From Pirellulales bacterium (GTDB lineage: Bacteria; Planctomycetota; Planctomycetia; Pirellulales; JADZDJ01): 49,428 bases of DNA. Below, in pieces: positions 9,341-13,212 of this stretch (within the stretch, counting starts at the first letter, position 1; the number at the start of each line of letters is the position of its first letter). Under the pieces are notes generated by a model, which searched no databases, was not told the DNA's origin, and was given only the letters and a program-made list of their open reading frames with translations. The position numbers and the translations under genes were made by a program. Where the stretch lies: NCBI GenBank assembly GCA_020851115.1, contig JADZDJ010000091.1, positions 1 through 49,428 on the forward strand, written 5' to 3'.

Positions 9341-11485
9341 GTGCAGCCCTTTACCATCCAATGTACGACTTGCCGGCGCAGCCTTCGGGTGACCAGCCCA
9401 GAAGCCGTGGGGCAAATTCTCGGGTGTCCCAAGTGCGGCAGCATGGTGCTGATCGAAGCGCCGCCAGGGTGGTCGCTCGATGCAGCGCCATCGGCTGTCA
9501 GCGCGGGTGCCCCGATGTTGTTCTCCGCATCGACGTTCGTTTCTCCCAAGCCAAGCCATACTCCACCGCCATCGGCGACACCGACGAGTGCCGTCGCAAA
9601 CATCGTCAGCAATTCATTGGCATTGCCGAAGGGAGCGGCTTGGAAAGATCCGCCGTCGAGTGCGACGCCGCCCGAAGTGGTTTTGTCGAATGGGCTCGAA
9701 GCGAACACAGGCGCAAGCCGAAGCGAGACGATGGCTGCCAGCGTTGGAAAGCCTACACTCGCTTCGATTCCCAACTCGGTTGATGTGCAAGCTGCCGCGG
9801 TGCAAGTTGCTGGCGAAATCAATGATCCGATTCGTGGCGACCAACTAGCCGCTGAATCGCAGCAGACCGTGGATGCTTGGCCGCGTTGGTTCTTACCTGG
9901 CGCGGCGGCGACGGTTGCGATTGGAGTCGTGTTGTTCGTTTTGCGACTGCTATTGCAATCGCCTGAAGCCGCGCCAATAGGCGTTGACGGATCGCGGCCA
10001 AATCAGCCGATCGTTGAATCGGCGCCTCAGCCAAGGCAACTGCCATCGGATGCCACGATGGTAGCGGATACGCCGAATCCCGACGCCGATTCGACACATC
10101 CAAGCGACGCTGCAAACGGTTTCAATTTGCCGGCTGCCAAATCTCCTACCGACAACCCGCAACCAGCCAACGAAGCTGCGCCGGATAAATCCTCCGTCGC
10201 TCAATCGCCCGCGGCAATGAGTACACCGGCCGTCGCACCATCTTCGAGCCCAAATGTTCCATCTGAACCTGCGTCAGCGGGAACCGCTGACATCGCAAAT
10301 GCGGAGCCCGCTTCCGTAGTCTCCACGGTATTGGAAACTTCGCCAGGCCATTCAGCCTCAACGGCCAGCGTTCCGCCAATGCCGACGTTGCAACGCGTTC
10401 CGCCGCGGCAAATCAGTCTCGAAGCGCGGTTGGCCGATTCAGTTCGCGGGATCGAGGTGCGTAATCTGCCTCTGAACCAGTTTCTCGAACTGCTGAGTAA
10501 CTTGAGCGCGGTACCGATCTCTTTCGATCTCGACGCGCTGGAACAACTGGGCCACACACCGACCGAGCCTATCACTTTGCAATTGAACTACAAGACACTG
10601 GCTGAAGTCTTGGACGCTGCGCTCGGGCCGAAAGGACTGGGCTACGATATCGGCCGCGGCGTGATTGTCGTCGGCCGGCCGCAGGTCGAAACGCCGCGGC
10701 AAGTGCCATACACCGTCGATGATTTGGCAGGCGACGATGCTTCACTCGCGGAGTTGGCCAACGTAATTTGCCAATTGATCACGCCGCAATCTTGGCAGCA
10801 AAACGGCGGCAAATCCAGTATGACCGCTGGGAGTGGAAAAATTGTCGTCGATCAAACCCCCGCGATCCAATATAAGCTGCTGGTCTTCTGCGAAAAGCTA
10901 CGAGTCGCCCGCGGTCTGCCGATCAAAAGCAGATATGATCCGGCGACGTTTTTGCTGACGACTCGCCATGCGAAGGCCAACGGCTTGCTCAAGCGGCCGA
11001 TGAAGGCGAATTTCAGTACGCCTCAGCCGCTCGCCGGAGTCGTCGAGTGGCTGCGGCACGCGACCAAGGCCGCCATCCTCGTCGATCACGCCGCGCTGAC
11101 CGATGCGGAAACTTCAATCGAAAGCCATTGCTCGGCAGTGTCCAACGGCAAGTCTCTCGCAATGCTGTTCGACGACCTACTTACGCCGATGGGACTTAGC
11201 TGGCGTGTCGTAAATGCTACGACGATCGAAATCACCACGCCGGAGGCTGCTGTCGAGCACGGCGAGATCGAATTTTTTCCGGTCAAGGATTTGGCTGCCG
11301 ATGTTGCCGCCGGCAAGGCGCTCGCCGATCAAGTTCGATCCCAACTCGGCCCGTCGGCGGCTAACCCACTACTGGGCGTGGTGATCTATTTCGACGCGCC
11401 AAGCAAATCGCTCATCGTCCGAGCGCCGCAGCAGATGCAGGGGCAGGTTGAAAGCTATTTGAACTCGCAGCGAGCAGAGAAGTAA
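9341..11485 (+). CDS. Zinc-ribbon membrane protein with periplasmic STN/secretin-like domains
   Basis: 714 residues starting at GTG 9341, supported by GGAAGAGG eight bases upstream. The N-terminus is a four-cysteine ribbon (C8, C11, C29, C32: IQCTTCRR... LGCPKCG), which should bind zinc in the cytoplasm. A disordered Pro/Ser/Ala stretch and a single transmembrane helix (about 183-206) follow, then another Pro/Ala/Ser linker to about residue 350. The last part (350-714) holds two or three repeats resembling secretin/TonB short N-terminal domains (VRNLPLNQFLELLSNLSAVPISFD..., and a second at about 535-645). Its neighbour upstream has the same layout: a cytoplasmic head, one helix and an STN-like tail. 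I infer they work together at the cell envelope. Function is otherwise unknown. Confidence 0.75.
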   Translation: MQPFTIQCTTCRRSLRVTSPEAVGQILGCPKCGSMVLIEAPPGWSLDAAPSAVSAGAPMLFSASTFVSPKPSHTPPPSATPTSAVANIVSNSLALPKGAAWKDPPSSATPPEVVLSNGLEANTGASRSETMAASVGKPTLASIPNSVDVQAAAVQVAGEINDPIRGDQLAAESQQTVDAWPRWFLPGAAATVAIGVVLFVLRLLLQSPEAAPIGVDGSRPNQPIVESAPQPRQLPSDATMVADTPNPDADSTHPSDAANGFNLPAAKSPTDNPQPANEAAPDKSSVAQSPAAMSTPAVAPSSSPNVPSEPASAGTADIANAEPASVVSTVLETSPGHSASTASVPPMPTLQRVPPRQISLEARLADSVRGIEVRNLPLNQFLELLSNLSAVPISFDLDALEQLGHTPTEPITLQLNYKTLAEVLDAALGPKGLGYDIGRGVIVVGRPQVETPRQVPYTVDDLAGDDASLAELANVICQLITPQSWQQNGGKSSMTAGSGKIVVDQTPAIQYKLLVFCEKLRVARGLPIKSRYDPATFLLTTRHAKANGLLKRPMKANFSTPQPLAGVVEWLRHATKAAILVDHAALTDAETSIESHCSAVSNGKSLAMLFDDLLTPMGLSWRVVNATTIEITTPEAAVEHGEIEFFPVKDLAADVAAGKALADQVRSQLGPSAANPLLGVVIYFDAPSKSLIVRAPQQMQGQVESYLNSQRAEK

Positions 11486-11951
11486 TCGCAACGGGAGCGC
11501 CGATGGGCGGAATTTGGAGGTCGTTCAACCTAAGGGAACTTTCATCGCGGTGCTCTGTTTCGCGATCGCGAGCGCGCAGTTTACCGCGGAGATTAAGTGA
11601 TTGTTTCTCAATCGAGACCATGAAGCTGGCTGGGAAGTGCTGCTTATGCTGAGCCAATCTAACAGAAGCGTGTTGCTGGGTGTTGGGTTTGGATTTCTCA
11701 TGGGTCGGCCGCTGGTGGGAATGTGGGGTTGGGTTCGCCGTTTCCCTTGCTTGGATGGCGCAGTTCTTATGGAGGATATGCCCTATGTAGAGCGACGCGC
11801 TTTTAGTCACTGCAAAACATCGATCACAGTGAACAAACTCAGGGCGTTGATGCGTGCCGGCTTTGGAATAAACGATCGAAGAATTCATTTCTGCCTCTCT
11901 GTCTTCCAAACGGCTCTTGCAATTCACCAACTGACAAGCCACAATTCTGAA
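11486..11951. other. Long leader/intergenic region upstream of the attenuator
   Basis: 466 bp with no supportable protein. Both long frames here read as Cys/His/Trp/Arg-rich non-protein text. Around 11680-11735 the plus strand is G-rich, with several GGG runs. The promoter for the leader peptide and DAHP synthase should lie here. TTGATG at 11847-11852 with TAAACG sixteen bases later is the best I can find, and it is weak. Confidence 0.5.
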
Positions 11952-12029
11952 ATGAGTACGTTTGCGAACCACTTCGGTTTTAGGTTTTACTTTAGCCCGC
12001 CAGGTTGCGGGGCCGAGGAAGGTTTGTAA
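11952..12029 (+). CDS. Putative Phe/Tyr-rich leader peptide controlling DAHP synthase
   Basis: 25 codons from the ATG at 11952 to the TAA at 12027-12029. Residues 4-14 read FANHFGFRFYF: five Phe (four TTT, one TTC) and one Tyr (TAC) within eleven codons, then an ordinary tail (SPPGCGAEEGL). It lies directly before an antiterminator/terminator pair and the gene for the first enzyme of aromatic synthesis, as in classical pheA-type leaders. The stop codon falls in the middle of the hairpin at 12014-12039, so a ribosome finishing the peptide would cover that region. Weak points: no clear ribosome-binding site is visible before the ATG, and the frame is open further upstream. Confidence 0.6.
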   Translation: MSTFANHFGFRFYFSPPGCGAEEGL

Positions 12030-12075
12030 CCGTTCCTCGATACGCCAAACAGGCAACCCAAGCCCCGAGACCTGG
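12000..12075 (+). promoter_or_regulatory. aroF: Antiterminator and competing structures of the DAHP synthase attenuator
   Basis: Antiterminator: CCAGG (12000-12004) pairs with CCTGG (12071-12075), and GGGGC (12009-12013) with GCCCC (12062-12066), with TTGC opposite GAGA as an internal loop. It encloses a strong local hairpin, CGAGGAA-GGTT (12014-12024) with AACC-G-TTCCTCG (12028-12039). It uses the left arm of the terminator, so the two exclude each other. A third pairing, GGTTGC (12003-12008) with GCAACC (12053-12058), excludes the antiterminator and would leave the terminator free to form. All pairings were read by eye. Confidence 0.6.
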
Positions 12076-12108
12076 CAAGAATGCCGAGTCTCGGGGCTTT
12101 TTATTTTT
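12060..12108 (+). terminator. Strong intrinsic terminator in the DAHP synthase leader
   Basis: A perfect 12-bp stem, AAGCCCCGAGAC (12060-12071) with GTCTCGGGGCTT (12088-12099). It is capped by GGCA/TGCC (12074-12077 / 12082-12085) around an AGAA loop and followed by TTTTTATTTTT (12098-12108). The T-run is only on the plus strand. It ends 79 bases before the DAHP synthase ATG, so it must be read through for that gene to be expressed from upstream. Confidence 0.88.
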
Positions 12109-12186
12109 AGCAACTAGCACTTAGCAATTGGCTAGCAGTGCCTCGCTATTTGCTCATCGCTTCCTCCCACACAGGATCCACAAGCC

Positions 12187-13212
12187 ATGATCGTCGTCAT
12201 GAAACCCACTGCTACCGAGGTCGATGTCGAACACATTGTTGGCCGCGTCCACAAGCTCGGCCTCAAGCCGCACGTCATCAAAGGAACCGAACGCACCGTG
12301 ATCGCGGTGGTCGGCGACGACCGAAAAACTTTCAAAGACCAGTTTGAAAGCGGTCCTGGCGTGGCGGAAGTCGTGCCGATTCTCGCGCCTTACAAAATGG
12401 CCAGCCGCGAAATGTACCCCGAGCCCACCACGATCAAAGCCGGCAGCCTCACCGTCGGTGATAATTCGATTGGAATGATCGCCGGTCCATGCTCGGTCGA
12501 AAGTGAAGAGCAAATTCTAATCACCGCCAAGGCCGTGAAAGCAGCCGGCGCGACTGCCCTGCGCGGCGGTGCATTCAAGCCGCGCACCAGCCCTTATAGC
12601 TTTCAGGGAATGAAAGAAGAAGGACTCAAGCTGCTGGCAATGGCCCGCGAAACGACCGGTTTGGCAATTGTCACCGAGGTCGTTGCGACCGAAGATGTCG
12701 AACTTGTCGCCCGTTATGCTGATGTGCTGCAAATCGGCGCTCGCAACATGCAAAACTACCGCTTACTCGAAGCAGTCGGAAAAACCGACCGCGCGGTACT
12801 TCTCAAGCGCGGGCCCAGCGCCACGATCGATGAACTGCTGCTAGCGGCCGAGTACATTCTCGATGCGGGCAATCCGAGCGTCATGCTCTGCGAACGCGGT
12901 ATCCGCACGTTTGAAACCCACACTCGCTTTACACTGCCACTGGCCACGGTCGTCTATTTACATGGCAAAACCCATTTGCCGGTGATCGTCGATCCCAGTC
13001 ACGGCACCGGCCACACTTGGCTGGTCCCCCAGATGTGCGCCGCCAGCATTGCCGCCGGCGCCGACGGCCTAATTGTCGAAGTTCATCCGTGTCCTGAACA
13101 AGCCATGTCCGACGGCGGACAATCGATGAACCTTCAGCAGTTCCGCGATACGATGGCCACTTGCCGCAAAGTGGCGGAAGCGCTGGGACGAAGGCTTGGA
13201 GCAAAAATCTGA
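12187..13212 (+). CDS. aroF: 3-deoxy-7-phosphoheptulonate (DAHP) synthase, type I-beta
   Basis: 341 residues. It condenses phosphoenolpyruvate and erythrose 4-phosphate to DAHP, the first step of the shikimate pathway, in the cytoplasm. Residues 1-70 form the ferredoxin-like (ACT-like) regulatory domain found in Thermotoga-type enzymes, where Tyr/Phe bind for feedback inhibition. The barrel carries IAGPCSVES (about 98-106), [17 protein letters not shown] (125-141), [21 protein letters not shown] and DPSHGTGH, all hallmarks of the family including the metal-binding Cys and His. Two ATGs (12187 and 12202) are close together; the first keeps the full regulatory strand. It is preceded by a putative Phe/Tyr attenuator, so it may be controlled by both allostery and transcription attenuation. 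Confidence 0.96.

Follow-up and report, generated by a model that had tools for sequence, protein, structure and literature searches.

A probable ribosome-mediated transcription attenuator with aromatic codons upstream of aroF in Planctomycetota

The aroF leader region and its alternative structures

The window analyzed here is a whole stretch of 49,428 nucleotides from a Pirellulales bacterium, a placement that its closest aroF relatives agree with. It carries an aroF gene whose 341-residue product matches PF00793, PF18152 and TIGR01361, the last at 370 bits (cut-off 268), so that the aroF-type gene originally placed 79 nt past a terminator does encode a DAHP (3-deoxy-7-phosphoheptulonate) synthase. 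The gene upstream of the leader region (9341-11485, 714 aa) has a match to STN (secretin/TonB N-terminal) that is sub-threshold only. The features of the region are:

11917..11945, + strand: putative leader promoter, from aligned leaders (TTGCAA at 11917-11922, 17-nt spacer, CACAAT at 11940-11945)
11952..12029, + strand: leader peptide ORF of 25 codons, MSTFANHFGFRFYFSPPGCGAEEGL
11961..11993, + strand: regulatory codons, five Phe and one Tyr, a cluster of aromatics kept in relatives
11996..12000, + strand: segment 1, CCCGC, pairing with 12007-12011 as hairpin 1:2, the anti-antiterminator
11999..12013, + strand: segment 2, the antiterminator 5' arm, within the leader ORF, with core CGGGGC at 12008-12013
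12014..12039, + strand: hairpin around the leader stop codon, from the fold, CGAGGAAGGTT / AACC-TTCCTCG
12060..12077, + strand: segment 3, terminator 5' arm and 3' partner of segment 2, with pairing bases 12062-12067 and 12069-12076
12082..12108, + strand: segment 4, the terminator 3' arm (12082-12099), and U-tract (12098-12108), from the fold
12187..13212, + strand: aroF, DAHP synthase, the putative regulated gene (TIGR01361, PF00793 and PF18152)

The original prediction described a 25-codon frame with five Phe codons and one Tyr codon in residues 4-14, and this is what MSTFANHFGFRFYFSPPGCGAEEGL holds, four of the five Phe codons being TTT. It is the sole ORF of 7-60 codons in the whole 49-kb window with at least six aromatics per 11 residues. 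Since the leader ORF is unique in 49 kb and the arrangement recurs across the phylum (see below), a chance origin of the arrangement in the window is dismissed.

The region 11940-12110 has a folding energy of -70 kcal/mol, with z = -5.75 relative to dinucleotide shuffles. The exclusive intrinsic terminator with a T-run that had been proposed at 12060-12108 is present in the minimum-free-energy structure, with a stem at 12060-12099, a U-tract to 12108 and a stability of about -31 kcal/mol. The proposed antiterminator is present as well, but it is stronger than the 10-bp helix first described: 11999-12006 and 12008-12013 pair with 12062-12067 and 12069-12076, giving 14 pairs with one G.A mismatch and a duplex of about -31 kcal/mol. 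Hairpin 1:2 and the stop-codon hairpin, whose arms are 12014-12024 and 12028-12039, were both absent from the original prediction and were found here. The leader tails of relatives often read GGAGG(A/T)GG, an SD-like string that might act in pausing or release, right before the stop codon. A generic promoter/terminator scan of the window gave no match for either element. The terminator was missed because its stem is interrupted and its loop is longer than the scan permits, and the promoter because it has only 8 of 12 consensus matches; it took a comparative alignment to see them.

Recurrence, covariation and promoter geometry in planctomycete aroF loci

We compared the 350 nt upstream of 111 planctomycete aroF loci. 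An aromatic-rich ORF (at least six F/Y/W per 11 residues) is found in 58% of these regions. The same criterion picks out 0.3% of shuffles and, among 2906 control windows taken from these contigs, 0.1%. By automatic criteria, leader and terminator occur together in 68 of the 111 loci, neither occurs in 27, and each occurs alone in 8 (Fisher p = 5e-12 for co-occurrence). Some of these single cases are complete or partial misses by the script, which overlooked parts of L091, where a leader (MSSHVTYRPSFIFSFTRYTSGAGGGV), promoter and terminator are all present, and L104, where FYFY is present. A second sample, which spans 16 families of the class with 60 upstream regions and shares some genomes with the first set, gave 39 with both leader and terminator. 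Leaders are also found in two loci titled Phycisphaerales, L082 and L086, the latter without a called terminator.

The original prediction had named loci that keep the terminator and lack the aromatic frame or the antiterminator pairing as evidence that would count against it. The eight automatic cases of this kind reduce to two clear exceptions (L037 and L085), in which a terminator stands without a visible aromatic leader, besides one weak terminator-only case seen twice (L012/L105). About a quarter of aroF loci have neither leader nor terminator (L019, L026, L031, L033, L038, L039, L040, L050, L051, L053, L062, L065, L068, L074 and others). In several of these lineages only a short distance separates aroF from a long ORF upstream, which would fit a move into another transcription unit with loss of the attenuator.

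All 94 distinct leader peptides contain Phe; Tyr is present in 90 and Trp in 82, and 78 have the full set. The means per leader are 4.0 for Phe, 2.0 for Tyr and 1.5 for Trp. Trp is no by-product of selection, because leaders picked on Phe and Tyr alone still contain it in 79 of 92 cases. The leader of the window is without Trp, and its same-family relatives L003 and L004 have it. DAHP synthase is the shared entry step to all three aromatic amino acids, and the combination of Phe, Tyr and Trp in most leaders would be fitting for regulation of that common step. Sensing of Phe, as first proposed, is thus retained but not sensing of Phe alone: over the phylum the sensed set appears to be Phe, Tyr and Trp, although we hold this trivalent sensing with less confidence than the mechanism itself. 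The leader tail is Gly/Ala-rich and conserved in part. The leader of L217, MIYTHDFYSLRQFYFASGQFYFASGQTV, contains the unit QFYFASG twice; its regulatory codons were apparently duplicated in tandem in the recent past.

Aligning related leaders, as had been suggested, reveals conserved aromatic codons and covariation in the stems. For 64 loci the cognate pairing of segments 2 and 3 has a mean of -17.7 kcal/mol, versus -14.0 kcal/mol for swapped segments (z = -11.5), and it beats shuffled pairing in 62 of the 64. Because this swap test re-optimizes every pairing, the choice of the best duplex cannot explain the signal; a row-shuffle covariation test on anchored segments is inflated by that choice, and the swap test was relied on instead. 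Several lineages have wholly different sequences that still match, for example GGTTTCAGG with CCTGAAACC in L043 and L063, GAGTTCCAGG with CCTGGAACTC in L079, and TGAGGACCT with AGGTCCTCA in L064. When 15 leaders are aligned (alignment A1), 84%, 88% and 85% of cells are paired in 1:2, 2:3 and 3:4, each more than in slid versions, and compensatory changes are found in all three. In 51 of 58 loci, hairpin 1:2 is stronger than synonymous recodings are on average (p = 2e-8). Measured from the first base of the last aromatic codon, segment 2 most often ends 22 nt further on; measured back from the end of the stop codon, its modal end is at 16 nt (exactly 16 in 25 of 62 loci). With this spacing, a ribosome that stalls at the aromatic codons would leave segment 2 free, whereas one that reaches the stop codon would cover the 3' core of the segment. 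The parts of the arrangement, their alternative pairings, covariation and spacing can thus be read directly from the sequence and its comparison.

The putative promoter of the window is weak, with its 8 of 12 consensus matches, and ends 6 nt before the ATG at 11952. A promoter of the type TTG-N16..18-TANNNT, with the -10 box starting at -14 to -11 from the leader start, is found in 35 of 94 leaders, the window included, when 0.33 are expected from shuffles (maximum 3), and CTTG peaks at -37 to -35 before leader starts. SD-like motifs precede 8 of 94 leaders versus 79 of 111 aroF starts, with start codons assigned automatically and those of GTG/TTG leaders less certain. The promoter position predicts a transcription start at or beside the leader ATG, and the leader mRNA is probably leaderless. 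The predicted leaderless start would explain the missing ribosome-binding site that the original prediction had pointed out. Our confidence in the leaderless start is lower than in the mechanism. Planctomycetes are described as having few SD genes and signs of leaderless mRNA or RPS1 use (PMC5397173).

In many Pirellulales, leuA is preceded by a Leu-rich short ORF and a terminator; 13 such loci were found among relatives, the same genome as the window included:

L162:1108-1167, contig C92: leuA leader of the same genome, MTNLQLSLSSSLLLAPSRP, then an intrinsic terminator

The other leuA loci with leader and terminator are L161, L163, L165, L166, L168, L169, L171, L172, L175, L177, L179 and L180. 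At the leuA leader stop a conserved AGGCCGTAGGGTTC is largely complementary to GAACCCCAAGGCC of the terminator 5' arm (for example in L163 and L168), and the leuA leader appears to be another attenuator of this type. For trpE, pheA and hisG, the loci of 20 relatives gave no leader with terminator at the thresholds used, at which milder leaders could be missed.

Ribosome position, proposed mechanism and rival explanations

To follow the alternative pairings along the leader, the RNA ahead of the ribosome was folded at every codon and the RNA behind it was left out. In these model folds of the window, pairing of segment 3 to the leader stays at 0.76 as far as codon 11985. With the ribosome at Tyr 11988 it drops to 0.59, and at the last Phe codon (11991) to 0.36; it is 0.02 by 11997 and 0 once the stop is reached. 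Averaged over 64 loci, the fraction of segment 3 bases predicted to pair with the leader is 0.61 with a ribosome stalled at the aromatic codons and 0.00 with one at the stop codon. Without a ribosome the mean is 0.47, which suggests that the block on antitermination by hairpin 1:2 is only partial, and in the window it is 0.76, where hairpin 1:2 would give no block. A stall at the very last aromatic codon already costs part of the antiterminator in some loci (0.36 in the window), and over all loci there is no sharply fixed distance between the last aromatic codon and the point at which the antiterminator breaks. The modelled stop-codon ribosome covers the 3' half of segment 2 only; some residual pairing of 11999-12008 with 12069-12076 may therefore form with the ribosome at the stop, this RNA being behind the ribosome and outside the folds.

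Taken together, aroF is very probably controlled by a ribosome-mediated transcription attenuator. The original prediction of ribosome-mediated attenuation is borne out insofar as the conserved aromatic codons, the conserved terminator, the covarying antiterminator and the spacing relative to the ribosome match what such a mechanism predicts. From these features we infer ribosome stalling, a leaderless start and termination in the cell, as follows. With transcription beginning at the leader ATG or right next to it, a ribosome would probably load on a leaderless mRNA. A shortage of charged tRNA-Phe or tRNA-Tyr (or, in most relatives, of tRNA-Trp as well) would stall the ribosome at 11961-11993, where it covers segment 1 and leaves segment 2 free to pair with segment 3, so that no terminator forms and aroF is transcribed. 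With ample aromatics, the ribosome would go on to the stop at 12027, where it covers the stop hairpin together with the 3' core of segment 2; segments 3 and 4 would then pair, and transcription would end near 12108. If the leader is not translated, hairpin 1:2 would compete with the antiterminator.

A simpler reading is that the terminator merely closes the upstream unit (the 714-aa gene at 9341-11485) and that the aromatic ORF is a chance frame. The terminator does sit between two same-strand genes, and in several leader-free lineages aroF follows soon after an upstream ORF. However, most of the phylum retains the aromatic ORF together with its spacing and its pairing to the terminator arm, and the leader is separated from the upstream gene by a conserved promoter; the comparison rules this reading out, and we consider it scarcely credible. 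The same terminator could also be driven without translation, by tRNA or an aromatic ligand that binds to a T-box or riboswitch, since alternative structures and a terminator before an amino acid gene are typical of T-boxes too. Against this, no Rfam family, T-box included, reaches the gathering threshold in the window, the aromatic-coding frame is the most conserved feature, and segment 2 is part of that frame, with a preferred distance to both the last aromatic codon and the stop. Given the Rfam result and a conserved coding frame that holds segment 2, we reject such a switch as extremely improbable.

Variants of attenuation were also weighed, in which, for instance, the leader ribosome would act on Rho-dependent termination or on aroF translation, or a tna-like peptide would arrest the ribosome on a free aromatic ligand. 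The partly conserved Gly/Ala-rich tail could point to such a variant, and Actinobacteria attenuators lacking some classical parts have been described (PMC1262725). However, segment 2 accounts for the conservation of the tail, the order and number of aromatic residues vary, unlike those of an arrest peptide, and a canonical intrinsic terminator and a covarying antiterminator are present, which makes these variants very unlikely.

For the phylum as a whole, we favor with some reserve a broader picture: an old and widespread leaderless attenuator of Planctomycetota, trivalent for Phe, Tyr and Trp, acting at the entry step within a regulon that includes leuA.

Relation to known attenuators

Every sequence-level feature of a trp/pheA-type attenuator that was tested is found at the aroF leader. 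End-product codons stand in a short leader ORF (five Phe and one Tyr per 11 residues, conserved), a hairpin 1:2 adjoins the regulatory codons and is weak or absent in some loci, the exclusive 2:3 antiterminator covaries (z = -11.5 and compensatory pairs), and an intrinsic terminator at 12060-12108 separates the leader ORF from the structural gene; in the model folds, a stalled ribosome frees segment 2 and a ribosome at the stop masks it. The likeness to E. coli pheL and trpL extends to the 1:2, 2:3 and 3:4 alternatives, the regulatory codons before segment 1 and the intrinsic terminator. pheL and trpL sense one amino acid each, have other target genes, and have an ordinary 5' UTR with a Shine-Dalgarno site. 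The E. coli ilvGMEDA attenuator is multivalent, its codons standing for several amino acids made by one pathway, and the aroF leader is likewise a multi-product leader, for aromatic rather than branched-chain amino acids.

The attenuation mechanism itself is already known (trp, pheA; C. glutamicum aroR-aroF); what appears new from the sequences is its occurrence in this phylum, with codons for three amino acids and a predicted leaderless start. The open-access literature searched yielded no account of amino acid attenuation from Planctomycetota. The closest functional match is aroR-aroF of Corynebacterium glutamicum, where a leader with Phe and Tyr codons precedes a DAHP synthase gene and Phe-limited ribosome stalling raises transcription (Neshat et al., 2014, as cited in PMC11802643). 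Compared by that published description, aroR of this actinobacterium has a short Phe-Tyr-Phe, whereas Planctomycetota have longer clusters, mostly with Trp. Mycobacterial leaderless short ORFs rich in cysteine codons act as attenuators (Canestrari et al., 2020, as cited in PMC9031893); the predicted leaderless start of the aroF leader would resemble theirs, but their enriched residue is cysteine and the downstream genes are others, and no homology is implied.

Because attenuation of this kind works only if a ribosome follows RNA polymerase closely, the aroF leader makes transcription-translation coupling in planctomycetes directly testable, and it would serve as a native sensor of aromatic supply. 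The known aromatic attenuators sense a single amino acid, unlike a leader that covers all three at the first committed step, and the leaderless start, if true, would extend the leaderless attenuators of mycobacteria to another phylum.
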